Positions 669 to 49,002 of a stretch of DNA of 64,000 nt are shown piece by piece. The DNA comes from Brasilonema angustatum HA4187-MV1. Lineage in GTDB: Bacteria; Cyanobacteriota; Cyanobacteriia; Cyanobacteriales; Nostocaceae. The notes under the pieces are model-generated. The model ran no database searches and was not told where the DNA came from. It saw only the letters and a list, made by a program, of their open reading frames with translations. Where the stretch lies: assembly GCA_019359695.1 (NCBI GenBank), contig JAHHGV010000039.1, positions 1 through 64,000 of the forward strand. Direction: 5' to 3'. Each line of letters starts with the position of its first letter. Positions within the stretch are counted from its first letter, which is position 1. Both the position numbers and the translations under genes were made by a program.

Positions 669-3401
669 TTATTCCAAGTTTTGTAGTCCCATTGCAATCT
701 TGCTGTGCTTCTCAATTTGCCCCATCACTTGTTTTGCCCGTGCAATCACAACCTTTGGTAAACCCGCCAACCTTCCCGCTTCAATCCCATAAGACTTATC
801 CGCACCTCCTGGTTGGACTTGGTGCAAAAAGATAATTTGGTCAGCTAATTCCTTCACCGTCACTTGGTAATTAGCAACATTTGGTAACAGCGAAGCCAAT
901 TCATTTAACTCGTGGTAGTGCGTCGCAAAAATCGTCCGCGCCAGAATCTCCGTTGCAATGTACTCCGCCACCGCCCAAGCAATAGAAAGACCATCAAACG
1001 TCGCGGTTCCCCTGCCAATCTCATCCAACAACACGAGTGATCTTGACGTTGCATGGTTGAGAATATTCGCCGTCTCATTCATCTCCACCATAAAAGTCGA
1101 TTGACCAGTCGCCAAGTCATCTACTGCACCTACACGAGTGAAAATGCGATCGCACACTCCCAACCTAGCAGACCCAGCAGGCACAAAACTACCAATCTGC
1201 GCCATCAGCTGAATCAACCCCACCTGACGCAAATAACAACTCTTACCACTCGCATTCGGACCAGTGAGGATAATTAAATCAGGAGATGAGGGAATATTTT
1301 CTCCCCCTGCTCCCCTGCTCACGCCAGTCGCCTCAACGGAGGGAACCTCCGCACGGTGAGACAGCGCTGCAGGAGGGTCTCCCGACCTAGGCGACTGCGT
1401 TAGCGCAGCGGAACCGGAGGTTCTCCCCGAAGGGCGCTGGCTCCCCTGCTCCCCTGCTTCCCCTCCCAGCTGCGTCGAATTCGGCACAAAAAATCCTGCA
1501 GGCAAAGACTGTTCCACCACCGGATGACGTCCATCCACAATCATAATTTCTCGTCCTTCCACCATCTCCGGACGACAATAACCTTGATAAACTGCCAACT
1601 CAGCCAAACCACACAACACATCCGCCGCTGCTACCGCACGGGAAATATTGCGAATAACTTCCGCCTGTCCCCCCACTTCTTCCCGCAACGCCACAAAAAT
1701 CTCATATTCTAACTGATTCAAATCATCTCGCGCCGTGAGAATCCGTGCTTCCCGTTCCTTCAACTCAGGCGTGATGTAGCGCTCCTCATTAACCAGCGTT
1801 TGCTTGCGTATATAATTAGACGGCACTTGGTTGGCTTTTGCACGAGAAATGCTAATGTAGTAACCAAAAGTTTTGTTAAATCCCACTTTCAGCGTCGGAA
1901 TTCCCGTCTTTGCTCTCTCCTCAACTTCCAAATTGGCAATCCATTTTTGGTCGTCTTCGACAGTTGCACGTCTTTCGTCCAACTGAGTATTTACCCCAGG
2001 GCGAATCAACCCGCCTTCTTTGATATGTATGGGTGGTGACTCCACCAGATGGGCGCGAATTTTCTGTGCCAGTTCTTCTAAAACAGGTGGTACCTTTTGC
2101 AATGCTTTCAGAAATGGAGAACGAGCACTACCCACCAAGCGGGATAATTCCGGTAAACGAGAGAGCGAGTCTGCCAAAGCAACTAAATCCCTTGCATGAG
2201 CAGTACCAGAACCAGCCCGTCCCGTCAGGCGTTCTAAGTCATAAATTTGACGTAATAACTGCCGTAGATCTTGACGAAGAGTTGTATTTTCTACCAATTC
2301 TTGGATAGTCTCTTGCCGGGAACGAATACCCTTAACATCAAGTAACGGTTGTAATAACCACCGTCGTAACGCACGACTGCCCATCGCTGTACTGGTTCTA
2401 TCCAAAGCCCACAAAAGCGAGCCGACAAAACTACCATCGCGGACAGTTTGCGTAATTTCTAGGTTACGACGAGTTTGATAATCAACAATTAAAAAGTCAG
2501 TGAGGGTATAGGTGCGTAACAACTGTAAGGGAATTGCGTTTTCTTTTTGCGTATCTTCTAAATATTCCAGCAACCCACCTGCGGCGCGGACGGCTAGCGG
2601 GAGTTGGTCACAGCCAAGTCCTTCTAGGGAGCGTACTTTAAATTTTTGCAACAATCTTGCTCTTGCTTCTGCTTGAGAGAAGGGAATTTGCGATCGCAAA
2701 CAATAACAAAAAGATGGCGGCAAACATTCGGGTAGATGTTCCGATTTTTCTCCTGCACGCAGTAGTAAACTTCTCAAGTCTGGTGCATTGGTAGGAACGA
2801 GAACTTCCGCAGGCTGCAAGCGCATGAGTTCCTGTGTCAAATGTTCTAAATTGCTACCTTGCGTAGTGAGGAATTCACCGGTAGAAATATCTGCATAAAC
2901 CAAACCCCAATGCTCTCCAGCCATGACCACAGCCGCCAGGTAATTATTGCGACTTGACTTGAGCATTCCTTCCTCTAGCAAAGTCCCAGGCGTCAAGATA
3001 CGGGTAACTTCTCGCCGCACCAATCGGCCAGCAGCTTCTGCTGCATCTTCCACTTGGTCGCAAATCACAACCGCATACCCTTTTTCCACCAATTGCGTCG
3101 CGTGGCGTTCCCAGGCGTGATGCGGTACACCACTCATCGCCACTCGTCCTACGTCGCCTACAAGCTTGCTGGTGAGGGAGAGTTCTAATTCCTGCGCTAA
3201 AGTCACAGCATCTTCAAAGTAACATTCAAAGAAATCTCCCACTCGATACAGTAGCATCGCGTGAGGATACTTATCCTTGATATCCACATAATGCTGGAAC
3301 ATTTGAGTCAGCTTACTGCGATCCACTAGCCGATGATCGGCGTGAGGTGCAGTTGGGTTACTGGGTTGGGTTGTTTGGGATGCAGAGTAAGAAGCGCTCA
3401 T
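669..3401 (-). CDS. mutS: DNA mismatch repair protein MutS
   Basis: MutS binds mismatched or looped DNA as a clamp and uses ATP to start mismatch repair with MutL. The N-terminal mismatch-contact motif GDFFE is at residues 55-59. The ATPase has Walker A GPNASGKS at 714-721, Walker B LVLLDE near 789-794 and the THYHEL helix near 827. At 910 residues it is longer than usual (about 850-870). The excess is a block of about 65 residues at roughly 642-706, just before the ATPase, rich in Gly, Ser, Pro and Arg. That block is encoded by a dispersed GC-rich repeat (1318-1436) with the reading frame kept. The gene is monocistronic. The start is the first Met before the conserved LTQMFQHY segment. The identity is certain; the effect of the insert is unknown. 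Confidence 0.98.
1318..1436. repeat. Dispersed GC-rich palindromic repeat inside mutS
   Basis: This stretch carries the same modules as many spacers in the window, for example AGCGCTGCAGGAGGGT, CGACCTAGGCGACTG and GGTTCTCCCCGAAGGG, also seen near 44340-44418 and 56570-56715. Here it lies in the reading frame of mutS and adds a multiple of three bases without a stop codon. Confidence 0.85.
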
Positions 3402-3665
3402 CGATGTCTACCAATACACATGACAACCTGCCAATATCCGATGATACCTTGATATCGAGGATACTCTCAAATTGTTCAAGGTTTTTAACTCTTCGACGAG
3501 TTCAGCTAGGAATCTGGATAGAAACTGTTAATTCTTAACACTCCCCACGGCTATCAAAACAAGGCGTTAGCTCGTTTTAACTTAAAGCTGGGGGATTCTT
3601 GGCGGGGGCGTCGGAACTTGCAAGGGACTGGCTGGCGGCTATTATAGCGATACTCAATTTCCTTC

Positions 3666-4297
3666 CTACAACTGACAAATTGCTTTGAGAACTTGTAACA
3701 ATAAGATTGAACGCTGTCTTTCCATCAAATTTAATTCGCTCATCAAGTGATAAGTTTGAAGATGTCCCTGTTGGATCTTGACAAACTGATAACTTCTTCC
3801 ATTGGTTGTCAAACCCCAAACTGATTCTTGATGCTCTAAACTTTTATAAGCGTATGTCAGCAGTTGAGGTAATCCTGTTGATATGTCAATCTGACTTTTT
3901 TTAGATTCAATTAATAATACCCAGAAAAATGCATTAACTTTTGTACGTTTGGCTTTGGTAATAGCTAAGATATCGAACCTACCTTTGATTTTTGTATCTT
4001 CATCTTCAACTTCTATATCAGCTATATCCTCTTCCAAAATAATCTCTATAGGGTAGCGGTAAAAACCAGCCAACCTCATCAAAAGAGCAAGGACAAGAAA
4101 CTTTACCTGCCCTTCGGAAACTGTGCCAGTTGTGAGGTAACGCCGAAAGTCATCCCGTATTTGCACAAGTTCTTGCTGTTCGACTTCTGTAAGTGGCTCG
4201 ATAATAAGGGTGTGAATGAGTCACTGTAATGTTATTGGAAGCCTAAAAGGCGCTGAACATCTTCCAATGATAAATTGCTATCTTTGAGGATTGTCAT
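3666..4297 (-). pseudogene. Broken PD-(D/E)XK cyanobacterial nuclease-like gene
   Basis: The long frame (3666-4166, or back to about 4199) encodes the body of a cyanobacterial family related to type I restriction HsdR N-terminal domains. It has a predicted Asp in GRFDILA and an ESKK motif (acid-x-Lys), followed by a conserved LPQLLTYAYKSLEHQ segment. The proper N-terminus is still readable upstream. An ATG at 4297-4295 begins MTILKDSNLSLEDVQRLLGF, then comes a TAA at 4234-4232, the same frame reads HYSDSFTPLLS, and a one-base shift near 4199 joins it to EPLTEVEQQELVQIRDDF. One nonsense and one frameshift therefore separate the start from the body. The GTG at 4166 is probably not a native start. 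The family assignment is from memory of similar proteins; the decay is seen directly. Confidence 0.7.
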
Positions 4298-4801
4298 AGT
4301 TATGTTGTGCGTATTTTGAAGACTTATTTTCCTTTAAATTTTATAGCAACCAGACTTTTAACAGTTATCAAGTAAGTGCAGTATCAGTTCCATTCCTTAA
4401 TGAACGGTCGGTTCACTACTCGAAACATTCACGCATCATAAACTTAAAAGAAAAATCTTTTTTTGAACTTAGATCCAAAGCGCTTTGCTGAGGACGCGAT
4501 CGCTATTATCTAAGCGCAAAGCCCATGAATCAAGCGTGATTCGCGCGTTTTTAGTGGAGGAAATACGCGCTTCGCCATGTGGGAATACTTTGAATTAAGC
4601 CCAGCGAGTGGCAAGTTGAAATCTTCCAACGCGAAAGCCCAATGTCCGCAGCACGCACGCTCCTGCAGGACTGGTTTTACCAGCTAGCTGCCTGGTAGCT
4701 ATTCACTGATTTCACGGAAATTTCTAAATTTCAGATTTTTCCTTGCGAAATGGACTAATCAGGCGGTGATTCTAAGCATACAAACACATTGAGGAATAAC
4801 A
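4298..4801. other. Gene-free stretch with a possible decayed small frame
   Basis: No intact gene is seen. On the plus strand an ATG at about 4578 opens MWEYFEL. One base out of frame a sensible stretch follows (KPSEWQVEIFQRESP, then ARTLLQDWFYQLAAW), ending at a TAG near 4697. This could be a small frameshifted gene, but I do not recognise it. Two HIP1-like GCGATCGC-type sites occur near 4497. Confidence 0.4.
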
Positions 4802-5317
4802 ATGACCATTACAAATGAAGCTGCTTCTGCTCAACTTAATAAACCTGTTCTCAAGGAAGGTTCAAAAGGTGACGCTGTTAAAGAACTGCAAAAACTGTTA
4901 TTAAAATGGGGTGCTTTTGTATCTCTTGATGACGAGGGTGCTTGTGTATTTCCTGGTGAAGAAGTTGTTGACGGTATATTTGGTCCCAAAACAAAAAGTG
5001 CGGTTATACTCTTCCAAGGTAAAGTGTTTCTTGTACAAGATGGAATTGTTGCAGATAAAACTTGGCGAGCACTTTTTCTGAATGCGCCAGTTGATATGCC
5101 TATCCTCAAGAAAGGTAGCAAGGGAGATCTTATAAAGAAGGTTCAAGAAAGACTGGCGATCGCCGACTACTATAACGGTAAAATTGACGGTGATTTTGCT
5201 AACAGTACAGAAAGAGCAGTCAAAGCTCTGCAAAAGGAGGCAGAGTTACCTGTGGATGGAGTTATTGAAGCTCGCACCTGGTTTGCGGTAAGCCAAATTA
5301 ATACAATTTTCTGTTAA
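4802..5317 (+). CDS. Tandem peptidoglycan-binding-domain protein
   Basis: This 171-residue protein has two PF01471-type peptidoglycan-binding repeats. The first runs from about residue 17 to 90 (LKEGSKGDAVKELQKLL then VDGIFGPKTKSAVILFQ). The second runs from about 98 to 165 (LKKGSKGDLIKKVQERL then IDGDFANSTERAVKALQ). Each has the expected G-x-x-G-xx-V/I pattern and the D-G-x-F-G/A turn. No signal peptide or catalytic domain is present, so it either acts as a stand-alone binding module or leaves by an atypical route. The start is supported by GAGGAATAAC just upstream of ATG. It is a single gene followed at once by a strong hairpin terminator. The domain call is firm; the biological role is not known. 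Confidence 0.85.
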   Translation: MTITNEAASAQLNKPVLKEGSKGDAVKELQKLLLKWGAFVSLDDEGACVFPGEEVVDGIFGPKTKSAVILFQGKVFLVQDGIVADKTWRALFLNAPVDMPILKKGSKGDLIKKVQERLAIADYYNGKIDGDFANSTERAVKALQKEAELPVDGVIEARTWFAVSQINTIFC

Positions 5318-5330
5318 TTAATTCGCTTTG

Positions 5331-5367
5331 AAAAGACCCAGTTTCTTTGAGAAATTGGGTCTTTTTG
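5331..5367. terminator. Bidirectional intrinsic terminator
   Basis: A hairpin has arms AAAGACCCAGTTTC and GAAATTGGGTCTTT (one G:T-type mismatch) and a short loop. It is followed by a T run on the plus strand and by the mirrored T run on the minus strand. It lies between two convergent genes ending at 5317 (+) and 5387 (-), so it can serve both. Confidence 0.85.
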
Positions 5368-5386
5368 ATTGTGGGACTTTTAGAAA

Positions 5387-6763
5387 CTAACACCAAGTTT
5401 GTACAACTCGACCTGTTAATTGCTGTCCCAGCCAAAATGTATTACTAGAAAGTGTATGTAGATTTTGCTTTTCGACTTTCCAGTTTTGCTGCGGATCAAA
5501 TAAAGTGAGTTCCGCTTTTTGACCTGGCGCGATTGCACTTATTCTCTGTTGTAAACACTCTGCCGGACGAGTACTAAAAGCTTTCCACAATTCTAATGCT
5601 GTAAATTCTCCTGTTTCTACTAGATGCTGCCATAAAAGAGGTAATGCTAACTCGTAACCAATTGCCCCTGGTGGTGCTTCGGCAAAAGCAACGGTTTTTT
5701 CTTCGTAGGTGTACGGTCTGTGGTCTATGGCTATTGCATCTATTACACCCGTCCGTACTGCCTGCCGTAACGCTGCTACGTCATTAGGAGTTCCCAAAGG
5801 GGGCTCTAAACGAAGACTTGGATTATAGCTTTTCAGTGCTTGCATGTCAAGTAAAAGATGCATCCAAGTGGTACTGACGGTAATCGGTAGACCTCTGGCT
5901 TTGGCTGATGCAATCAGTTCGACACTGCGAGCAGTGGAAACACGCATGATATGTACTGGCGTACTTGTGGCGGTGACTAATTCCAACAAAGCGGCGATCG
6001 CAGAGGTTTCCGCACTAGAAGGTATAAAAGGCAGCCCAAAACGGATAGCATCTGGAGCTTCCCGGATCACGCCATTTCCCATCAATTGGCGATCGCAACA
6101 CCAAAATGCAACTGGTTTCCTCAAAGGTTGGATATATTCCAACACCCGACGTACCAGCCCAAAATTTTCCCAAGGCTGACTATCAGTAAAGCCAACCACC
6201 CCAACTGCTGCCAAGTTTGCCAATTCAGTCATTTGCTTGCCAGCAACATCTAAACTAATTGCACCCCAGACATTGACCTGGGGAGAAGACAATGAGGACA
6301 AAGGAGAATTTTGCTTCTCCCTCATTTCTACACCAGTCACCTGCTCTGGTAAATCTTCCTGGAGTTTACGCTTACCCTGGCGCTGGCTTTTCATCTGGCT
6401 CATCACCTCCAACTCCCCTCCTCGCTTCTGCAACTGTGCTACCACAGCCGGATTATCAATCACGGGTAGGGTATCGGGTAAGATACTAATTCGTGTAAAG
6501 CCCCCAGCAGCAGCAGCTTGCAGGAGAGACACGAAGGTTTCGCGTTCTTCAAATCCTGGTTCTCCAGAGTGGCTATACAAATCTACCAACCCTGGTCCTA
6601 ATATCAACCCTTGACAATCTCTGACACGAGTGTTGCTTGGCACATCAGAAATGTGATTCGTTACAGACTTGATATAGCCATCATCAATGAGCACATGAGC
6701 AATTTGGTCAGTTCCAGAAACAGGGTCGATAACCCTGACTTGTTGTAGCAGTTCACTTGTCAT
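5387..6763 (-). CDS. Dihydroorotase-family protein lacking key metal ligands
   Basis: The 458-residue protein is a cyclic amidohydrolase most like dihydroorotase, which closes carbamoyl-aspartate to dihydroorotate in pyrimidine synthesis. The conserved EAPPGAIGYELALPLL segment and the overall order match the family. Several active-site signatures differ. The first barrel motif reads DLYSHSGEPG where DxHxHLREPG is expected, so the first His and the substrate Arg are absent. The HVSTA motif reads RVSTA. The DHAPH motif reads DHRPY. It therefore looks like the PyrX-type non-catalytic homologues that assemble with aspartate transcarbamoylase. A charged insert of about 45 residues lies near 120-165. 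I chose ATG 6763; an in-frame TTG four codons upstream is less likely. It converges on the peptidoglycan-binding gene. Confidence 0.85.
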   Translation of the reverse strand: MTSELLQQVRVIDPVSGTDQIAHVLIDDGYIKSVTNHISDVPSNTRVRDCQGLILGPGLVDLYSHSGEPGFEERETFVSLLQAAAAGGFTRISILPDTLPVIDNPAVVAQLQKRGGELEVMSQMKSQRQGKRKLQEDLPEQVTGVEMREKQNSPLSSLSSPQVNVWGAISLDVAGKQMTELANLAAVGVVGFTDSQPWENFGLVRRVLEYIQPLRKPVAFWCCDRQLMGNGVIREAPDAIRFGLPFIPSSAETSAIAALLELVTATSTPVHIMRVSTARSVELIASAKARGLPITVSTTWMHLLLDMQALKSYNPSLRLEPPLGTPNDVAALRQAVRTGVIDAIAIDHRPYTYEEKTVAFAEAPPGAIGYELALPLLWQHLVETGEFTALELWKAFSTRPAECLQQRISAIAPGQKAELTLFDPQQNWKVEKQNLHTLSSNTFWLGQQLTGRVVQTWC

Positions 6764-6891
6764 TTTCGCTATCAACCATCAGCTATCAGCTATGAGCTTT
6801 TTAACTTTTATATATTCTTAACTGTGCGCTTGTGTTACGTAACCCAAGAATCAACTCGCGGCAAAAGGCTGAGGGGGCAAACATTACAATG

Positions 6892-8244
6892 CTACAATGC
6901 TCCCGCCGCTGTTTTATCAAGTACGCCACCACCTAAATGAGCGGTAATGTTCATGGCTTGCAGTACTGGTTTGCCACTTGCTTCCAAGGGGTAGTCAATA
7001 ACACTTACTGCACCGTTACCCTGACGAAAATTCCAAAAATGCTCTGACGATAAACCCAGAACGTGACAAAGCAGGGTTTTGTTAGTAGCATCATGAGCAA
7101 CAACTAATCCAATTTTGAGTTCGTTTGCCAATGCAGTTTGGACAATTGACTCCCACGCTGCGACACTACGTTCCCAAACTTGTTGTAAGTTTTCTCCTTC
7201 TGGCATTTGGACTTGTGCTGGGACTGTTCGCCAGCGATCCAACTCTCCTGGAAATTCCTGCTCTATTTCTTTTTCTAATTTACCTTCCCAAAGTCCGTGA
7301 CTAATTTCCCTTAAACCATCCTGTAATTCCAAATTGACATCAGTATGATACCGCAAAATAATTTCTGCAGTTTCTTTAGGACGCACCATTGTGCTACTGA
7401 GTGCAAAATCAATCTCTACGTCTTTGAGAAACTGAGCAGCTTTTTGTGCCTGCTGTTTACCATTGTCGTTGAGGGGGACATCAATTTGCCCCTGAAATCT
7501 GGTTTGGCGGTTCCACTCAGTTTCTCCGTGACGCACCAGCAACAACCTTACACCTTTGTGATTTGGGCGAAATGAGGGCAGAATATCTCCTAAATGTTGC
7601 GTCTGATTCAGAGATTCTAGTTGGACAGGTTCTCCCAATCCTCCAGAAAAATTCAGTACACTGATGCAACAGTTAGATTGTTGTATGGAATGGTAGCGTT
7701 CTGGAGGGATTTCCAGTGCCGTGCTCAAAAGAGCACGATTAATGCCATTATGTCCCACAACAAGTATTGTTTCGTTTGGATGGCGAGCTAAAACTTCTTG
7801 CCAAAACTGCCGCGCCTGTTCGTACAAAGCCACAACAGGAAAATGTTCTGTTGTTTGCTCACCGTCTTTTACAGACATCCGCAGTAGCTGAGGAGTTTCC
7901 TGCCAAATACGGTAGTCTTCACGAAACTTCTCTTTCACTTCAGCAGAAAGCATTCCCTGCCATAAAGGCAGATCAATTTCCATTAACAGATCAGAAGTTT
8001 GGGGAATAGCAGACTGCTCAGTATGAATTGTCAACTCACGGTGAATAATATCTACTGTATCTTTTGCACGTTGCAAAGGACTGCTATATATTGCATTAAA
8101 TAGGAAATTACTGAGGGCTTTGCCTACTTGAGTAGAATCACTACGACCTTTTTCAGTTAACTTAGAAGCATCCAAGCGTCCTTGTACGCGTTTTTCGGTA
8201 TTATAAGTACTTTGACCGTGGCGCACGATAATTACACGAGTCAC
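6892..8244 (-). CDS. Two-domain histidine phosphatase (phosphoglycerate mutase-like)
   Basis: The 450-residue protein has two histidine-phosphatase domains in tandem. The first starts with RHGQSTYN at residues 8-15 and has VVGHNGINRALL near 160. The second starts with RHGETEWN near 238 and has VVAHDATNKTLL near 382. Each RHG His is the phospho-acceptor. Members of this family act as cofactor-dependent phosphoglycerate mutases or as phosphatases, including metal-independent phosphoserine phosphatases in photosynthetic bacteria. The substrate cannot be read from sequence. The GTG start at 8244 is preceded by a clear GGAGGG at a spacing of 7. The gene stands alone, with dihydroorotase downstream after about 130 bases. 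The double-domain form is usual in cyanobacteria. Confidence 0.9.
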   Translation of the reverse strand: MTRVIIVRHGQSTYNTEKRVQGRLDASKLTEKGRSDSTQVGKALSNFLFNAIYSSPLQRAKDTVDIIHRELTIHTEQSAIPQTSDLLMEIDLPLWQGMLSAEVKEKFREDYRIWQETPQLLRMSVKDGEQTTEHFPVVALYEQARQFWQEVLARHPNETILVVGHNGINRALLSTALEIPPERYHSIQQSNCCISVLNFSGGLGEPVQLESLNQTQHLGDILPSFRPNHKGVRLLLVRHGETEWNRQTRFQGQIDVPLNDNGKQQAQKAAQFLKDVEIDFALSSTMVRPKETAEIILRYHTDVNLELQDGLREISHGLWEGKLEKEIEQEFPGELDRWRTVPAQVQMPEGENLQQVWERSVAAWESIVQTALANELKIGLVVAHDATNKTLLCHVLGLSSEHFWNFRQGNGAVSVIDYPLEASGKPVLQAMNITAHLGGGVLDKTAAGAL

Positions 8245-8478
8245 GTTTTACCCTCCTGTATCTAAAGGAATCATTCTACTGTAAAGTGTTAGCAGAATAA
8301 TCTCTTGACAGAAGTCTACCTCATGTGTTGACTACTCTTGCAATTACCTGAAAATGAAGATCCCTCCAAGCTTATAGGCATTTTAGCCCAAAATCTGGAG
8401 GGTATTTGAGTTTTTGGATTGTTATGGAGATTTTACCCAAAAATTTCCGTAAAACAACAAGAAAACTCATTATTTCTA

Positions 8479-8871
8479 TTAATTTCCATCTTTATCTAGA
8501 TCAACCTGTACTTTCACCCCATCATTACTGTAAAACGAGTCATCTCCTTGGGGGAAAAGCAGATTGTTTGGAGTTGTTAACGGTTCTCTACGACGTAATT
8601 CGACTTGATCCCCAAGTTGCAAAACATCACCTTGATATACACTTTCTGCATAATTTTTTTGTGGGACATTATTTTGAGAATTTAGTCCTGTAAAAAATCT
8701 TGCGAAATCACCTTCGGCTGTTCTATTACTTACGCCAGTTAAGGAATTTCCTTGAATTGTGTAATTCCCAGTTTTTGAGTTTGATGAGACTGAGGACTGT
8801 GCGTAAACTTTGGTTTGTAATCCGGCAGTTGCCGCTAGTATAGCCAAGGCAGAGAATATTTTGAAGTTCAT
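8479..8871 (-). CDS. Small secreted protein of unknown function
   Basis: This 130-residue protein has a typical signal peptide: Lys at position 4, a hydrophobic core of about 15 residues, and a cleavage site after VYA near residue 24. The mature part is rich in Asn, Ser, Gly and Gln, has no cysteine, and ends in an acidic stretch with D-x-D-x-D-G-N. That stretch resembles a calcium-binding dockerin/EF-like loop, but only one copy is present. GGGGAAAAAC precedes the ATG as a ribosome site. The gene stands alone between two spacers. I do not recognise the family. It is probably periplasmic or exported. Confidence 0.65.
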   Translation of the reverse strand: MNFKIFSALAILAATAGLQTKVYAQSSVSSNSKTGNYTIQGNSLTGVSNRTAEGDFARFFTGLNSQNNVPQKNYAESVYQGDVLQLGDQVELRRREPLTTPNNLLFPQGDDSFYSNDGVKVQVDLDKDGN

Positions 8872-9438
8872 TGTTTTTCCCCAAACTTTAGATTATTTTT
8901 TGCATAAGTATGAAAAAGCTTTTTGACTTAGCAGTATAGAGTCAGCTTTATACAACAAACGTCTTGGAATAAACGCTTTTTGAAGTTTAAAAAATTTTCT
9001 AATAGCCAAAAAGCTAAACCATAGCACGTTATTCAGAGTTTATGTTTGAGAACGCATTATGGAACAAGCACAATTTTTTATGATTGTCGAGCTTGATTAA
9101 GCTCTACAGGTTGAGTTTACTGCTGTGCCCCTAATTAGCGAGGTATTAGATACTCACTCTTAATAATTGCTGTTGTCTGTTAATACAAATAAACAAGTAC
9201 TTTCTAGGATATTAAAGATTTGTAGATTTTTCCTCTTATTTGAGAGATATGTCTATAAGCATAGATGAAATTTGCTAATCTCATTAGCGAACCAACAACG
9301 CCAACACTATTGTTTCGTAGATTTATGGTTGTGGTTTCACAGATACATCCCTGGCATATTCTGATCAAAAAATATGCCATGAATTCTCAGGATTAAGAAT
9401 GGGGTTATAAAACAGATATATACGAAAAAAAACCAGCA
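8872..9438. other. Gene-free spacer between divergent genes
   Basis: This AT-rich spacer separates the secreted-protein gene (-) from the nuclease gene (+) and must hold both promoters. No repeat, hairpin or known operator is convincing. Confidence 0.5.
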
Positions 9439-10134
9439 ATGTCCTTTGATACCCAACTGCTACCCCGCATCAATGCCAAATCAATGCGGGAAGATGGTAA
9501 ACAATATTACGTAGATACTCAGGGAAATCGCTTCCCTAGTGTGACGACAATACTTAACGCCACCAAACCCCAAGAAGACCGTGATCGGCTGTTAAATTGG
9601 AAAGCGCGTGTTGGAGGTGAAGAAGCCACCCGAATTACAACAGGAGCCAGTCGTCGAGGAACGCAAACCCACAAACAAATTGAACGTTATCTACTCGGAG
9701 AAAATCCTACTTGTCCTGAAGCCAGTCGTCCTTATTGGGAAAGTATCAAACCTGTTTTAGAAGAAATTGATACAGTCAAACTTGTGGAAGGCTCAGTCTT
9801 TCACTACAACATGAGTTATTCCGGCAAAGTAGATTGTGTCGGAAGTTACAAAGGTATTCCCTGCATTTGCGAGTGGAAAACAGCAGACAAACCTAAAGGT
9901 TCTATTGAGCGTTTATATGAACATCCTCTGCAATTAACAGCTTACATAGGAGCAGTTAACCAGTGTTATCTTGAATATGATATTGAAATCAATCACGCCC
10001 TGTTGGTTGTAGCAATACCAGACACAGAAGCTGAGGTATTTTGGTTTGAGCCAGAAGTCATGAAAGATTACTGGAAGCAATGGGAACAACGAGTTGCTGA
10101 GTATTGGAAACGTAGAAACAGTTGGAGTTGGTAA
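9439..10134 (+). CDS. PD-(D/E)XK exonuclease-like protein (MGME1-type)
   Basis: The 231-residue protein resembles the single-strand exonuclease domain of the mitochondrial MGME1/Cas4-AddB superfamily. The core is readable: an early SVTTILNATK segment (34-43), a RRGTQTHKQIERYL helix (72-85), D132 in SGKVDCVG, then E145-W-K147 as the E-x-K pair, and QLTAY (165-169) as the final Gln motif. These residues form the metal site of RecB-like nucleases. No helicase is fused or adjacent, so it is a stand-alone nuclease of unknown pathway. The start has no clear ribosome site. It converges on the FGE gene, with only 8 bases between the stops. Confidence 0.8.
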   Translation: MSFDTQLLPRINAKSMREDGKQYYVDTQGNRFPSVTTILNATKPQEDRDRLLNWKARVGGEEATRITTGASRRGTQTHKQIERYLLGENPTCPEASRPYWESIKPVLEEIDTVKLVEGSVFHYNMSYSGKVDCVGSYKGIPCICEWKTADKPKGSIERLYEHPLQLTAYIGAVNQCYLEYDIEINHALLVVAIPDTEAEVFWFEPEVMKDYWKQWEQRVAEYWKRRNSWSW

Positions 10135-10142
10135 AGCAGAGT

Positions 10143-11138
10143 TCACACATTAACTACGCAACGAAATCCAATATGACAAGTTGAGGTATCTACTGTTTCT
10201 GGATGACGTGCGGCTGGTCGATAACGCTGGCAGTAGTTAGGGGCACACAGAAAGGAACCACCTTTGAGTACCTTTCTGGGTATTTGGGAGGGTGTATTTG
10301 GGTCAAAGCTCTCTTCGCGTGTTCCACCTCTGGGGTTGACCGGAATACAGCAAGATTTTGTCTTATTTTCCGGGTGAGAATCTCGATACCAGTCAGTTGT
10401 CCACTCCCAAACGTTGCCGATCATATCGTACAAACCATAACCATTTGCAGGATACGAGCCGACAGATTCTGCTCCTGGAGAGCGCGGCTTTAGGTTTTGC
10501 CAAGGAAACTCACCTTCCCAAGTGTTAGCCATCCGCTTACCTTTAGGAGCAAATTCATTTCCCCAAGAGTAGACAGCACCCTCCAGCCCACCGCGAGCCG
10601 CAAATTCCCACTGTGCCTCTGTTGGTAACAATTTACCAGCCCAAGCTGCGTAAGCTTCAGCATCTTCATAGGCAATATGTACCACAGGATAATTGTCTCG
10701 CCCTTTGATAGAACTTCCAGGTTCGGCTGGATGTCGCCAGTTTGCACCCGGCACATAAACCCACCAGCTACAAGTTTGTAAATTCACTGGATGTTTCGGC
10801 TGCTGAAAGACAGCCGAACCAGGTACTAAAAGTTCCGGTATAGCTCCAGGATAATCTTCTGGCTTTGGTGGACGTTCTGCCACTGTCACATAGCCAGTTG
10901 CTTTCACAAAACGTTGAAACTGTTTGTTAGTAACAGCATAGCGATCCATCCAAAAGCCATCTACACGGATAAGATGGGCTGGAGCTTCCTCTGGGTAATG
11001 GTGGTCAGACCCCATCACAAAAGCGCCACCTGGTATCGGGACCATATCTTTATCAGGTGCTTTACCAGGACGCTTGATCGCGATTTGTCTACCAGATTTA
11101 CCAGATGAAACCTCGTGATGTACTGTACGTTCCTGCAT
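10143..11138 (-). CDS. Formylglycine-generating enzyme (SUMF1/FGE family)
   Basis: FGE oxidises the active-site Cys of sulfatases to formylglycine. The 331-residue protein has the family start VPIPGGAFVMGSD, the PVVHIAYEDAEAYAAWAGKLLPTEAQWE core split over residues about 185-210, GNVWEWT, and the terminal GGSFLCAPNYCQRYR block. The last block carries the two redox/copper cysteines C298 and C303 with the C-x4-C spacing of human FGE (C336/C341), so it is likely a true FGE rather than a SUMF1-like ergothioneine or kinase-associated protein. The longer in-frame start (11444) overlaps the sulfatase. ATG 11138 is preferred, with AAGGAAAA upstream. It lies 13 bases after the sulfatase stop and is surely co-transcribed with it. 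Confidence 0.92.
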   Translation of the reverse strand: MQERTVHHEVSSGKSGRQIAIKRPGKAPDKDMVPIPGGAFVMGSDHHYPEEAPAHLIRVDGFWMDRYAVTNKQFQRFVKATGYVTVAERPPKPEDYPGAIPELLVPGSAVFQQPKHPVNLQTCSWWVYVPGANWRHPAEPGSSIKGRDNYPVVHIAYEDAEAYAAWAGKLLPTEAQWEFAARGGLEGAVYSWGNEFAPKGKRMANTWEGEFPWQNLKPRSPGAESVGSYPANGYGLYDMIGNVWEWTTDWYRDSHPENKTKSCCIPVNPRGGTREESFDPNTPSQIPRKVLKGGSFLCAPNYCQRYRPAARHPETVDTSTCHIGFRCVVNV

Positions 11139-11151
11139 GAATGACTTTTCC

Positions 11152-12525
11152 TTAAGCTGGGTAAGGCAGTACTTGTCCGTTCCATTCCTCAAAGCGATCG
11201 CGCAACTGCTGGAATACTTTGGGATTGTTATCCTTAAGATCAGTTTGTTCGCCTTCGTCAGCAGCAAGATTGAACAGATATTCCTTCTCTCCCTGACGCA
11301 AGTACTTCCAATCCCCACTTCGGACTGCTGCTTGGAGTTGCCCTGAAGGACGCCCACCAACATTAGATTTATAGCGCCAGAACAGCGTTCGAGGATAAAC
11401 GGGTTTTTTGCCCACAAGAACTGGAAGCAAATTCCGACCATCAAGTGGATAGTTGGGGTCGGGTGAAGTACCTGTTGCTGCCAGAATTGTTGCTGTTAAG
11501 TCGAAAGTGATAAGAACTTGGCTGTTCACTTGGTTTGGTTGAATCACTCCGGGCCAGCGAATAAAAGTAGGGACTCGTATACCACCTTCATACAAACTGC
11601 TTTTTCTCCCTTGAAAAGATCCGATATCAGAGTATCTCTCACCCCCGTTATCACTGGCAAAAATGACTATGGTATTATCAGCCTGCCCAGAATCTTTTAA
11701 AGCTTGCAAGACTTTACCAACTCCCTCGTCTAGCCTTTTTAGGATCGCAGCGTAAGTTTCTTTTGACCCTCCGGCAGTATAATCGTTTGAATTGTAGAAA
11801 GTTCGACTCAACTCTTCATCTTCTGGTCCTTCCCAAGGCCAATGAGGTGCATTGTAATGAAGGCTCAGGTAAAACGGTTGATTGCGGGGTCTGGTGAGGA
11901 ATTCAACAGCACGCTCAGTATACAAGTCTGTAGCGTAGCCTGGTTTATCTACAGGCACCTCACCTTCATAGAAGTCAAGTTCTCCAGCTACACCTTTGTG
12001 GGTAAAGTAGTCGATCCCCCCACTGTAATTTCCAAAGAATTCGTCAAAGCCACTCTTGAGTGGACCGTAATCTGGAAGAAAGCCAGCGTGCCATTTACCA
12101 ACCAATGCTGTCTGATAACCATTGGCTTTTAAAAGCGAAGCGATCGTTGGCTGTTGAGGCGGTAATCCTACATTGTCACTTTCAACTAGAGGTTCTTGAA
12201 GACCAACTGGCAATCGCGCTGGATAACGACCTGTAAAAAAGCCGATCCGTGTTGGCGTGCAAACTGTTTGCGCTGCATAAGCATTGGTGAAGCGTGTACC
12301 TTCGGTTGCCAACTGGTCTAAATTCGGCGTCTGATAGGTTTTTCCATAAATACCAATGTCGCCCCAGCCCAAGTCATCCGTCAAAATAAACAGTATGTTC
12401 GGACGCTTTCGTTTGGCAGCGACAGCAGAAAACACACTCGATCCTCCTAATGTCAAGACTGTGCTGGCAAGTGCTGTCCCCACAAACTGACGACGACTAA
12501 TTGGTGGTAGTTTGCGTTTGTTCAT
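11152..12525 (-). CDS. Tat-exported arylsulfatase-family sulfatase
   Basis: The 457-residue protein begins with a twin-arginine signal (SRRQFVGTA at 10-18 and a hydrophobic stretch ending AVAA near 37). The mature enzyme has the metal pair D50/D51 in ILTDDLGWGD and the sulfatase signature C89-T-P-T-R with TGR at 98-100. C89 is the residue to be converted to formylglycine, and it is a Cys-type site, which matches the FGE gene 13 bases downstream. A second metal motif, FASDNGG, occurs near 290. The natural sulfate ester is unknown; such enzymes can scavenge sulfate from organic esters in the periplasm. AGGAGAAATCA precedes the ATG. If FGE acts in the cytoplasm, the Tat route would let the modified, folded protein be exported. 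Confidence 0.93.
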   Translation of the reverse strand: MNKRKLPPISRRQFVGTALASTVLTLGGSSVFSAVAAKRKRPNILFILTDDLGWGDIGIYGKTYQTPNLDQLATEGTRFTNAYAAQTVCTPTRIGFFTGRYPARLPVGLQEPLVESDNVGLPPQQPTIASLLKANGYQTALVGKWHAGFLPDYGPLKSGFDEFFGNYSGGIDYFTHKGVAGELDFYEGEVPVDKPGYATDLYTERAVEFLTRPRNQPFYLSLHYNAPHWPWEGPEDEELSRTFYNSNDYTAGGSKETYAAILKRLDEGVGKVLQALKDSGQADNTIVIFASDNGGERYSDIGSFQGRKSSLYEGGIRVPTFIRWPGVIQPNQVNSQVLITFDLTATILAATGTSPDPNYPLDGRNLLPVLVGKKPVYPRTLFWRYKSNVGGRPSGQLQAAVRSGDWKYLRQGEKEYLFNLAADEGEQTDLKDNNPKVFQQLRDRFEEWNGQVLPYPA

Positions 12526-12976: not shown

Positions 12977-14923
12977 ATGGGGCGATACGAAAGGCGACCA
13001 GATAACCCACGAGAAAAAGGCGATCCATATGGGACAGCAGAAAGTGCCTTACGGGCTGTCACTGAGGAATTGCAAATTCTCCAACGGAATTTGCTTAGGT
13101 CTTTACAGGAAGATACCAAGCGGTTGCAAGCAGAAAAAGACCGCTTAACTGAAGACATTAGACGCCTGGAAGAGGAAAAAGAACATCTTCAACAGGCGTA
13201 TCAAATTAATGAGCAGCAAACGTTAATTCGTCAATTGTCACAAGTATTAGCTAATCATATATCAACGCAGCTGCAATCTTCTTTGGGAACTTTAGCTACC
13301 CAAGCTATGGAGCGTGTTTCCCAACCACTGGGAAGTTCTGAATCTGTACAAACCAGTCGCTCCACCAGTGAAGCAAATGAGTATGCAGAAAAACTTTTGG
13401 GTTCTTTGGATGACACCCTTACTATTACCTTTAACTCACTGCAACAGGAGTTGAAAAACTATCAAAGCGGTCTTTCTCAGCAGTTGTCCCGAATGATAGT
13501 CCAACAAAGGGAAGGCGAAGCAATTTTAATAGAATTAGTGAATAGTCTGCGTAGAGAACTGGAACAAACAACACAACATTCACCATCTGCAATTGCACCA
13601 GTTCCCTCTGGTGAGATTGAACAAATTCTACAACAGCAACAGCTGAGTTCTGAGGAAGTACCAACAAAGTTGCAAAGAGATATTCCTCCAGAAACTACAA
13701 TTTTACCTAGGAGTTTACCCCAGGAAGAAACCCCTGCTTGGAATTCTCTTTCCCAAAGTATAGTCTCGCCAAGCGAAACAACTCAGTCTCCTCCTGTGTT
13801 AGAAGAACCAACTCCGGTAGCATCTCCAAGACGCGCCGTTTTAGAGCCAGAAACATCTCCTCCACCAGAACCACAACTTACACCAAGGCAGAGGGGAATT
13901 TCTTCTTTACAAATCACAGGAATTATCCTGCTTGCATTGTCAACAGTAGCAACAGCGCTGTATAACGTAGCTATTAAGGTAATTTTCCTGCCTGGCTCCC
14001 AAATTTTGGGTGTGTTTGATGCACAACGCCTGATCTCACCAAATTTGGGTAATTCACTTTTCATTTTGATGCTCAGGATGCTGGTGGTTCTACCGCTAAT
14101 GTTGCTTTTGGCTCCCATGCTACATTCACGAGTATGGCAAGATCTGCAATACCTGAGTGACTCAGTTCGAGGAAACTCCAGTAATCCGAGTACAAAACAA
14201 GTGTTGATACTGTCAATTGTCAGTGGATGCTTTTTGTTCCTCTCTCAGGTACTCATCTACCTTGCCATCGGTCAAATTCCGACTGGGATGGCGATCGCAC
14301 TTTTCTTTGTGTATCCAATTATCAACGGACTGGTGTCATGGTTTTTGTTCCGCGATCGTCTAACTTTATTCAGTTCTGGCGCTATAGCTGTTATTGGCAT
14401 GGGTGAATTATTGGTTTTAGGAAGTTCTAACAGTAGTGTCATTGGTAATACTCGTATCGGCAGCATTGCAGCAATTGCTTCAGGAGGTGCTTTTGCTGTG
14501 TACCTCCTAGTCTCCCGCATGTGTGCAGCCAAACTTCATCCAGTGTCTCTTACCTTAATCAATTTTGCTACGATGTTGCTGTTGTCTGTCTTCGGTTTGA
14601 TACTGCCTTTACCCACAAGTTGGAACTTGCAACTAAACCGTGGTTACCTGCTAGAACTTGTTTTATGTGCTTTCCTATTGGGTGTACTAACGCTCTTCAG
14701 CTATCTGTTCAATAATTTTGGAATTCGTAAAATTGGTGCCTCACGCTCAGCAATTATCGGTGCCAGTATTCCTGCTCTAACGGTCATTTTTGCTGGGTTG
14801 ATTCTTCAGGAAACTTTGCAACTTGAGCAAGTTTTGGGAGTGCTGCTGGTTAGCTTTGGAGCAGGGGCTCTCTGTTTTGAAAAAATCCGCAGGACTAAGC
14901 CTTTTCATCAGTCTTCGCAGTGA
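12977..14923 (+). CDS. Coiled-coil N-terminus fused to an EamA/DMT transporter
   Basis: This 648-residue protein has three parts. Residues about 20-90 are a charged, heptad-like coiled coil (RLQAEKDRLTEDIRRLEEE). Residues about 90-300 are Gln/Ser-rich, then Pro/Glu/Thr-rich, and look unstructured. Residues about 307-640 hold about ten hydrophobic helices with the EamA pattern: YNVAIKVIF, TGMAIALFFVYPIINGLVSWFLFRD in the first half, and GASRSAIIGASIPALTVIFAG in the second. EamA proteins move small metabolites across the inner membrane. The large soluble N-terminal domain is unusual and may anchor or regulate the transporter. GAGGA almost abuts the ATG, so a slightly later start is possible. 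A strong hairpin follows the stop. The substrate is unknown. Confidence 0.85.
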   Translation: MGRYERRPDNPREKGDPYGTAESALRAVTEELQILQRNLLRSLQEDTKRLQAEKDRLTEDIRRLEEEKEHLQQAYQINEQQTLIRQLSQVLANHISTQLQSSLGTLATQAMERVSQPLGSSESVQTSRSTSEANEYAEKLLGSLDDTLTITFNSLQQELKNYQSGLSQQLSRMIVQQREGEAILIELVNSLRRELEQTTQHSPSAIAPVPSGEIEQILQQQQLSSEEVPTKLQRDIPPETTILPRSLPQEETPAWNSLSQSIVSPSETTQSPPVLEEPTPVASPRRAVLEPETSPPPEPQLTPRQRGISSLQITGIILLALSTVATALYNVAIKVIFLPGSQILGVFDAQRLISPNLGNSLFILMLRMLVVLPLMLLLAPMLHSRVWQDLQYLSDSVRGNSSNPSTKQVLILSIVSGCFLFLSQVLIYLAIGQIPTGMAIALFFVYPIINGLVSWFLFRDRLTLFSSGAIAVIGMGELLVLGSSNSSVIGNTRIGSIAAIASGGAFAVYLLVSRMCAAKLHPVSLTLINFATMLLLSVFGLILPLPTSWNLQLNRGYLLELVLCAFLLGVLTLFSYLFNNFGIRKIGASRSAIIGASIPALTVIFAGLILQETLQLEQVLGVLLVSFGAGALCFEKIRRTKPFHQSSQ

Positions 14924-28316: not shown

Positions 28317-30056
28317 ATGCGAGGTTTATTGACAAGCCGCTTCGCCTCTGGGCGAACTTTTCGAGAAGGTTCTGTTGGGTTGTTGCTTTTATTGGGACTG
28401 GGAGTGTTTGGGTTAATTATATTATGGCTAAGTAAATTCACTTTTGGTCGTAATTCATACAAAGCTATTGTGGAATTTGCAAATGCGGGCGGTATGCAAA
28501 AAGGAGCACCTGTTCGGTACAGAGGTGTAAAAGTAGGCACTATTTCTGCCATTCGACCAGGAGCAAATAACGTTGAGGTCGAAATTGAAATTACCAAACC
28601 CAAGCTGATTATTCCTAGCAATGTCGCAGTTGATGCTAATCAGTCTGGATTGATTGGCGAAAGCGTTCTTGACATCACACCAAAAACAGAGCTACCTCCT
28701 GGAGCTGTAGTAGGCAAACCCTTAGAAAAAAATTGTAACCCTCAAATTATTGTCTGTAATAATTCTCGATTAAAAGGTCAAATTGGAATCAGTACAGATG
28801 AACTGATTCGTTCAAGCACTCAGTTAGCAACTGTATACAGTGACCAGAAATTCTACGGTAATGTGAATAGAGCTGTAGAAAATACTGCTCTTGCTGCTGC
28901 AAATATTGCTGAGTTAAGTCGTAACTTCACAGTTTTAAGCAAAAACCTTCAACAACAACTAAACTCCTTTTCGGCGACGACTAATACAGTTCAAAAAGCA
29001 ACAACTCAACTGAGTGCATCCAGTACCAAAACTCTAAGTCAATTCGGTAATACTGCAGACCAATTTAGTTCCACTGCTAAAGAACTTCGTTTAACAAACA
29101 CTCAAGTTAGTAAGCTGATTAATAATCTTGATAATCTAGTTACTAGCAACCGCTCTTCACTTGTTGCAGCCTTAAACAATATCACCGAAACTAGCAATCA
29201 GTTACGTAAAACAGTTAGCAGTTTTTCACCTGCTGTTAATCGTGTAACTCAAGGAGAATTAATCAAAAATTTAGAAACTTTGTCTGCAAATGCTGCACAA
29301 GCTTCTGCTAATTTGCGCCAAATCTCCAACAGCCTTAACAACCCTAATAACGTGGTGGTTCTGCAACAAACTTTAGATTCTGCACGAGTCACATTTGAAA
29401 ACACCCAAAAGATCACATCTGATTTAGATGAATTGACTGGAGATCCAGCTTTTCGGAAAAATTTACGACAACTTGTTAATGGTTTAAGTAGCTTGGTTTC
29501 CTCCACGCAGCAGATACAAGAGCACACGCAAATTGCCAGTACTCTAGACTCAGTCAAAGCTGTTGTTAACAATTCTAATGTGGCAATTTCCGTACCCGAG
29601 ACAAACCAAGAGCAGACGTCATTTAGTCTGCCATTGACAGCTACCAAAAGTGCTGAGAAAACGTTTCAACCTACCACTATTACTGTGGCGAATCCCACAC
29701 CAAGTAATCGTCCACAGCAGATGATGTTCGATCTCTCACCTGGTGCGACCAAAAGTGCTGAGAAAACGTTTCAACCTACTACCATTACTGTGGCGAATCC
29801 CACCCCAAGTACTCGTCAACAGCAGATGATGTTCAATCTCTCACCTGGTGCAACTAAAAGTGCTGAGAAAACGTTTCAACCTACTACCATTACTGTGACT
29901 TCTTCCACTCCAAACACTGAACAACAATCATCTGATACTAAAAGTGCTAGTAAGCAGCCTCAACGTACTAGTGATCAGGTGACTCCCTCTTTAGCTCAAG
30001 AAAACCTTTTGAGGAAACTGAGGGAACATCGTGAGCAGGGGAAATTAGGTGAGTAG
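28317..30056 (+). CDS. MlaD/TGD2-like MCE-domain lipid-binding protein
   Basis: The 579-residue protein has one N-terminal membrane helix (about 18-40), then an MCE domain (about 48-125: FANAGGMQKGAPVRYRGVKVG, SGLIGESVLDITP). A very long Asn/Ser/Thr/Gln-rich helical region follows (about 150-440), probably forming a coiled tunnel or bridge. The C-terminal tail has three 35-residue direct repeats starting KSAEKTFQPTTITV. MCE proteins bind lipids in the periplasm for an ABC transporter, and the MlaF-like ATPase gene is just upstream. ATG 28317 is chosen over GTG 28302 because AGGTGAGGA stands at a good distance before it. A hairpin near 30105-30131 may end the unit. Confidence 0.87.
   Translation: MRGLLTSRFASGRTFREGSVGLLLLLGLGVFGLIILWLSKFTFGRNSYKAIVEFANAGGMQKGAPVRYRGVKVGTISAIRPGANNVEVEIEITKPKLIIPSNVAVDANQSGLIGESVLDITPKTELPPGAVVGKPLEKNCNPQIIVCNNSRLKGQIGISTDELIRSSTQLATVYSDQKFYGNVNRAVENTALAAANIAELSRNFTVLSKNLQQQLNSFSATTNTVQKATTQLSASSTKTLSQFGNTADQFSSTAKELRLTNTQVSKLINNLDNLVTSNRSSLVAALNNITETSNQLRKTVSSFSPAVNRVTQGELIKNLETLSANAAQASANLRQISNSLNNPNNVVVLQQTLDSARVTFENTQKITSDLDELTGDPAFRKNLRQLVNGLSSLVSSTQQIQEHTQIASTLDSVKAVVNNSNVAISVPETNQEQTSFSLPLTATKSAEKTFQPTTITVANPTPSNRPQQMMFDLSPGATKSAEKTFQPTTITVANPTPSTRQQQMMFNLSPGATKSAEKTFQPTTITVTSSTPNTEQQSSDTKSASKQPQRTSDQVTPSLAQENLLRKLREHREQGKLGE
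29643..29957 (+). repeat. Three 105-bp direct repeats in the MCE gene
   Basis: The unit beginning AAAAGTGCTGAGAAAACG starts at 29646, 29751 and 29856, so the period is exactly 105 bases (35 codons). The first two units are nearly identical; the third diverges at its end. It encodes the tail repeats. Confidence 0.9.
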
Positions 30057-48940: not shown

Positions 48941-48942
48941 AC

Positions 48943-49002
48943 TTTGTTTGTGTAGCCGCGATTTCTAATCGCTTTGTTTGTGTAGCCGCGATTTCTAATC
49001 GC
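48943..49002. repeat. Perfect tandem 30-bp repeat
   Basis: The 30-base unit TTTGTTTGTGTAGCCGCGAT plus TTCTAATCGC occurs twice, exactly. Each unit ends in the small palindrome GCGATTTCTAATCGC. Confidence 0.9.

Follow-up and report, generated by a model that had tools for sequence, protein, structure and literature searches.

The mutS gene lies at 669-3401 on the minus strand of the window, a term used here for the whole 64-kb stretch of DNA analysed, and encodes a protein of 910 aa. Its open reading frame contains no internal stop. The protein matches the Pfam domains MutS_I to MutS_V and the NCBIfam models PRK05399 and TIGR01070, all above their cut-offs, and the possession of domains I-V together with the curated equivalog score identifies it as MutS1. 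The Walker A region TGPNASGKS occupies residues 713-721 (1239-1265, minus strand), and T713, G714, P715, N716, G719, K720, and S721 are invariant among 63 aligned MutS proteins. Nineteen residues before this region ends a GC-rich palindromic cassette of 119 nt (1321-1439, minus strand), which is read in frame as 40 codons (residues 655-694). Its boundaries come from BLAST comparison with genome G001; genomes are designated G### and loci L###, G000 being the own genome (8.5 Mb). The first-pass annotation had placed the repeat at 1318-1436, correctly within mutS and with limits 3 nt off. From the sequence and the residue numbering, the linker preceding the cassette in gene sense starts at residue 646 and consists of the first part of an array of AGCAGGGG (1440-1466, minus strand). 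The linker following it comprises the rest of that array and the codons up to PDLIIL, ending at residue 706 (1284-1320, minus strand).

The linker of G001, the closest relative, holds a tandem array of the 8-nt unit AGCAGGGG that lacks the cassette. In G000 the cassette interrupts this array. Since the array is uninterrupted in G001, the cassette entered a pre-existing array. On either side of the insertion the MutS proteins of G001 and G000 are nearly the same, with 98% identity over residues 1-656 and 100% over residues 695-910. The linker stretch measures 267 nt in G000 versus 177 nt in G001, a net gain of 90 nt or 30 residues. With a cassette of 40 codons and a net gain of this size, the earlier figure of about 65 added residues is overstated. 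It holds in comparison with the solved MutS structures, whose sequences have 5-6 residues at the linker position versus 63-64 in G000 MutS, and it then includes the flanking array. Only one of the six frames of 1321-1439 is free of stops, and mutS reads that one. A long hairpin, in which the cassette ends pair with each other with interruptions, is formed by the stretch 1318-1440 (-61 kcal/mol, z -2.57; 2 of 200 shuffles were equally stable). As to terminal inverted repeats of the MITE type, local alignment of the cassette with its own reverse complement gives an internal pair of 15 nt with 2 mismatches.

The AlphaFold2 model of the protein has a mean pLDDT of 84.8 and a pTM of 0.81. The best match among solved structures is E. 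coli MutS (1ng9_A), with a TM score of 0.91 by target length. Residues 651-703 (1293-1451, minus strand) have pLDDT values below 50 and are predicted to form a disordered loop, flanked by strands at residues 641-645 and 709-713. As far as a model can indicate, these structural data fit a tolerated loop. Most likely G000 MutS is a functional protein with a normal core and a longer disordered loop.

The same linker was compared in a wide set of relatives. Of 149 genomes searched, 148 gave a mutS match, and loci were taken from 110. Family f1, taken to be Nostocaceae (named relatives include Anabaena and Dolichospermum), contributes 86 of its 89 genomes; G007, G013, and G057 were left out, having no full-length match. 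A match to MutS_I (PF01624) is absent in G007, G057, and G145, all rated 99-100% complete, and in G013 the only match covers an N-terminal fragment located at the end of a contig. The mutS1 gene may have been lost, or missed, in these four genomes.

Three of the 110 linkers could not be judged because of runs of N (G002 and G129) or a contig end (G006). In the 107 complete linkers, the frame is kept in 106. The sole exception is G005 (L014), where a poly-C-rich array separates two halves of mutS that are both open and similar but do not share a frame. This shift could be either a real frameshift or a sequencing error, the assembly being a draft of 400 contigs. Linkers that are gapped by a run of N (G002), cut by a contig end (G006), or frameshifted (G005) can make mutS look split in annotation. 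Frame retention, together with the predicted disorder between two strands, makes it probable that the added segment is tolerated as a loop, as the first-pass annotation had proposed.

The linker is the only strongly variable region of MutS. Among 102 aligned proteins its length takes 38 values spanning 55 aa; the next gaps span 16 and 13 aa and have 4 lengths each. The suggestion that the site is a hotspot in the MutS alignment is borne out by these figures. The alignment omits L013, L014, and L102, in which the frame differs or N occurs, L040, whose gene is cut by a contig end, and L095, which lacks the anchor; L015, L081, and L101, without the anchor pair, are also omitted, and L081 and L101 were read separately and found in frame. 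An earlier alignment based on an N-terminal anchor had kept 69 proteins and dropped 35. The distance from GRHP to TGPN is 36-89 residues in 82 members of f1, 34-56 in 22 members of other families of the order, and 33-66 in 16 named cyanobacterial loci. Outside photosynthetic cyanobacteria it is 30-39 (median 32) in 57 of 60 loci (L181-L240), among which three Gastranaerophilales have a distance of 37. Where a relative shows no obvious repeat, its linker is short, as with LGSGEATAFPDL in L052 and LGNGQKQDSSPDL in L075, and is not the equally long and similar block that had been named beforehand as evidence against an insertion.

The linkers as a whole have no sequence in common, and their length varies even within a genus. 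By eye, those of different genera differ in kind. Matches to a 64-nt piece of the G003 linker number at least 14-41 in every one of 7 genomes of its genus, and those to an 84-nt piece of the G038 linker at least 13-98 in every one of 8 genomes; the mutS site is counted wherever it matches. Both pieces are dispersed repeats other than the G000 cassette. When linkers were compared with 583 kb of mixed library sequence, 25 of 82 were matched, as were 3 of the 82 control pieces taken downstream and none of the 82 taken upstream. The other 57 linkers had no match in this library, which is drawn mostly from other genera, so a repeat origin is established for part of the linkers only. The long linkers of G087 (asparagine-rich), G025, and G073 are unlike known repeats in look. 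Pairwise comparisons reveal further nested in-frame inserts in the linker, of 24 nt (G036 versus G081), 21 nt (G033 versus G078), 45 nt (G004 versus G003), and, with a palindrome, 33 nt (G043 versus G061). G006 carries a GC-rich insert cut by the contig end; in both G004 and G006 the insert lies inside a different element at the MutS loop.

GC-rich members of the cassette family occur at other places in the window. With the 119-nt query, at least 50 matches at E<=0.001 were found in the own genome, a lower bound given that 40 of 273 first-look candidates were scored. A 120-nt piece of neighbouring mutS DNA used as a control gave exactly one match per genome in 9 of 9 genomes. The best other copies of the cassette are 96% identical over 117 nt and 91% over 118 nt. 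This abundance and the stop-free mutS frame agree with the initial description of a dispersed GC-rich repeat inserted in frame just before Walker A. The family had also been called intergenic, which applies to most copies: of 35 matches to the cassette peptide in the own genome, 31 lie in frames of at most 105 aa. The remaining four are in open frames of more than 700 aa, and coding hosts are therefore rare. Among 30 nucleotide-match loci, the cassette is inside a long open frame at three, namely mutS, a DUF4347 protein, and a CyRepA1 replication protein; the fourth long-frame peptide match is near the N-terminus of RecJ. In all four proteins the cassette is read in the same frame, the sole stop-free one, and gives the same peptide. 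The peptide also has matches in 9 of 10 other genomes, mostly in short frames and, among the matches listed, in some long ones.

Empty sites were seen for two of the four coding hosts, MutS and RecJ. The RecJ site is empty in the congeners G001, G002, G005, and G006; in G000 and G003 it is occupied by 78 nt and in G004 by 54 nt, and each of these inserts preserves the frame. The copies of G003 and G004 differ internally from that of G000 (L264, G000:C80). On the assumption of a start codon upstream of the copy, the RecJ copy would be translated. No array is present at the empty RecJ site. A target-site duplication is unreadable inside the mutS array, and none is clear at the RecJ site.

A simple-array motif lies within 100 nt of 18 of the 30 cassette copies, mutS included, versus 10% of random window positions; this excess is a lead only, since the motifs were picked after some of the flanks had been viewed. 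The six Y1_Tnp loci of the own genome, with flanks of about 1.5 kb, have no cassette beside the Y1 transposase genes. A single 20-nt match to the cassette was obtained there (E 3.1), which is at chance level. A REPIN moved by a RAYT was therefore rejected, as none of the six Y1 transposase loci has a linked cassette beyond that match. No mobilising enzyme for the cassette was found at these six loci. The cassette presumably moves with the help of some agent.

The small dispersed repeats (SDR) of heterocystous cyanobacteria are reportedly very small mobile repeats that are often found in tandem heptamers and are nested. Compared by description, the 21- and 24-nt inserts in mutS are of such size, whereas the cassette is longer, at 119 nt, and resides in coding DNA. 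The Nostoc SDR (Elhai et al. 2008) are cited in PMC4390886 and PMC3116915. Palindromic repeats inserted in frame into proteins have been described for Rickettsia (Rickettsia palindromic elements, RPE) and others (PMC10969869, PMC2229807). The RPE described there are dispersed palindromic repeats that measure about 100-150 nt and contain an open frame; they occur between genes and also fused in frame into unrelated proteins. Judged by description, the cassette is of this kind, as it is dispersed, forms a palindromic hairpin, and provides the same peptide to several unrelated genes. It differs in belonging to another phylum and in having its mutS copy nested in a tandem array; a further difference is that, in members of a family, a variety of repeats enter a single loop of the same protein.

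The mutS gene is a recurrent home of mobile DNA in other bacteria as well. In Vibrio splendidus and other Beta- and Gammaproteobacteria, mobile elements in mutS have been linked to mutation rate (PMC5296598). As described there, these elements carry integrases, are located near the HTPMMQQ motif, introduce a new promoter and start, and are able to excise, whereas G000 has a small in-frame repeat before Walker A. An element of the Vibrio type was rejected for G000: the cassette has 119 nt and is located at residues 655-694, and MFQHY, which aligns with the HTPMMQQ region, is at residue 34. G-rich short repeats with quadruplex potential are reported for Nostoc and Xanthomonas (PMC4692102) as under-represented in coding regions. 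In Nostoc they form arrays of short G-rich units at many places in the genome; the array considered here is similar in kind and differs in being inside a repair gene. Related background can be found in parts of PMC4907049, PMC5101192, and PMC2884548. A search of open-licence PMC papers found no literature on repeats in this MutS loop.

A footprint of raised mutation was sought in mutS and five neighbouring genes. The terminal branch of G000 is 0.0256 for the N-terminal part of mutS, versus 0.0231-0.0253 for G001-G004. For the five neighbouring genes it is 0.0267, versus 0.0253 in G003, 0.0191 in G004, and 0.117 in G001. No long branch of G000 was found in this weak test, and its transition/transversion counts are ordinary. 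The trees are unrooted, with support of 45-76 on some nodes. In the stretch 669-12525, mutS is 95.0% and 97.0% identical to that of G001 in its two parts, and the five neighbouring genes together are 89.5% identical, which suggests, from sequence identity, that mutS has recombined between congeners. The branch test is weakened by this apparent recombination and by the unrooted trees with low support. A change in mutation rate, one of the two outcomes envisaged in the first-pass annotation, is thus unsupported; this weak test shows no trace of a raised rate, and a recent insertion or change would escape it.

Taken together, these observations are very probably explained by an RPE-like protein-coding repeat that entered a tolerant, repeat-collecting loop through a two-step insertion filtered by selection. 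The loop before the ATPase P-loop would accept extra residues in this cyanobacterial family; both short tandem arrays rich in G and other dispersed repeats may have entered or expanded in it repeatedly. Small palindromic cassettes would then have been inserted into those arrays. They may arrive by a general dispersal process, possibly one favouring arrays. Insertions that break the frame would mostly be removed by selection, leaving the surviving ones in frame. Confidence in this explanation is held down by the repeat origin having been found for only part of the linkers.

Targeting at the DNA level alone would require that arrays attract cassettes and that mutS was struck only because an array arose there once. 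The position of the G000 cassette inside an array, the array motifs near 18 of 30 copies (chosen post hoc), and the inserts of G004 and G006 within a different element at the MutS loop agree with such targeting. However, unrelated-looking repeats occupy the loop across genera, no other MutS site varies comparably, and the empty RecJ site is without an array, and we regard it as unlikely. Alternatively, the loop might have been put to use, with the added segment tuning the ATPase, clamp formation, or partner binding. It adjoins the P-loop, and its span of 36-89 residues in 82 family members exceeds the 30-39 of non-photosynthetic loci, but the lack of a sequence common to all linkers and the length differences within genera make such a use very doubtful. 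An addition of 30-40 residues near the nucleotide site could conceivably disturb the ATPase, impair MutS, and turn the strain into a mutator. Yet the frame and motifs are intact, the core is predicted with confidence by AlphaFold2, and the branches and substitution counts of G000 are unremarkable, although a recent insertion would be traceless; this outcome is highly improbable.

Another possibility is a switchable mutator, in which linker units of 7 and 8 nt slip and frameshift MutS off and back, giving phases of high mutation. Neither the 8-nt unit of G001 nor the poly-C-rich 7-8 nt units of G005 are multiples of 3, and because the AGCAGGGG array is open in each of its three frames, adding or dropping one unit would shift downstream reading. 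In keeping with switching, G005 is out of frame at the linker, with both halves open and similar. But the frame is lost in just 1 of the 107 complete linkers, a poly-C error in the 400-contig draft could explain that one, the mutS branch of G005 is no longer than that of G006 (0.046 versus 0.065), and the array of G000 is split by the cassette. Such switching seems quite improbable. It is even harder to believe that the MutS loop is a slippage-prone fidelity switch which an array-splitting cassette, as in G000, locks on; if true, arrays of 7- or 8-nt units would leave mutS a single step away from shifting frame reversibly.

The favoured explanation, a tolerant loop that collects repeats under selection for frame, points to RPE-like protein-coding repeats in cyanobacteria. 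More unusual is that one loop of a core repair protein is entered by different repeats across a family. The MutS loop variants that have arisen naturally in the relatives could be used to ask how far the ATPase tolerates insertions beside the P-loop, and to test whether mutation rate is affected by repeat arrays located in a mismatch-repair gene.

Other repeats and variable segments are present in the window. The dihydroorotase at 5387-6775 (minus strand) has at residues ~110-150 a second linker that varies among congeners and is repeat-like in look. An in-frame coding repeat occurs at 12977-14923 (plus strand), where G003 and G004 have 21 additional residues (VASPRR..EEPTP) compared with G000, G001, and G002. 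Three tandem copies of a 105-nt unit are located at 29640-29954, the others being 93% and 60% identical to the first, and a perfect 30-nt tandem pair is found at 48942-49001.
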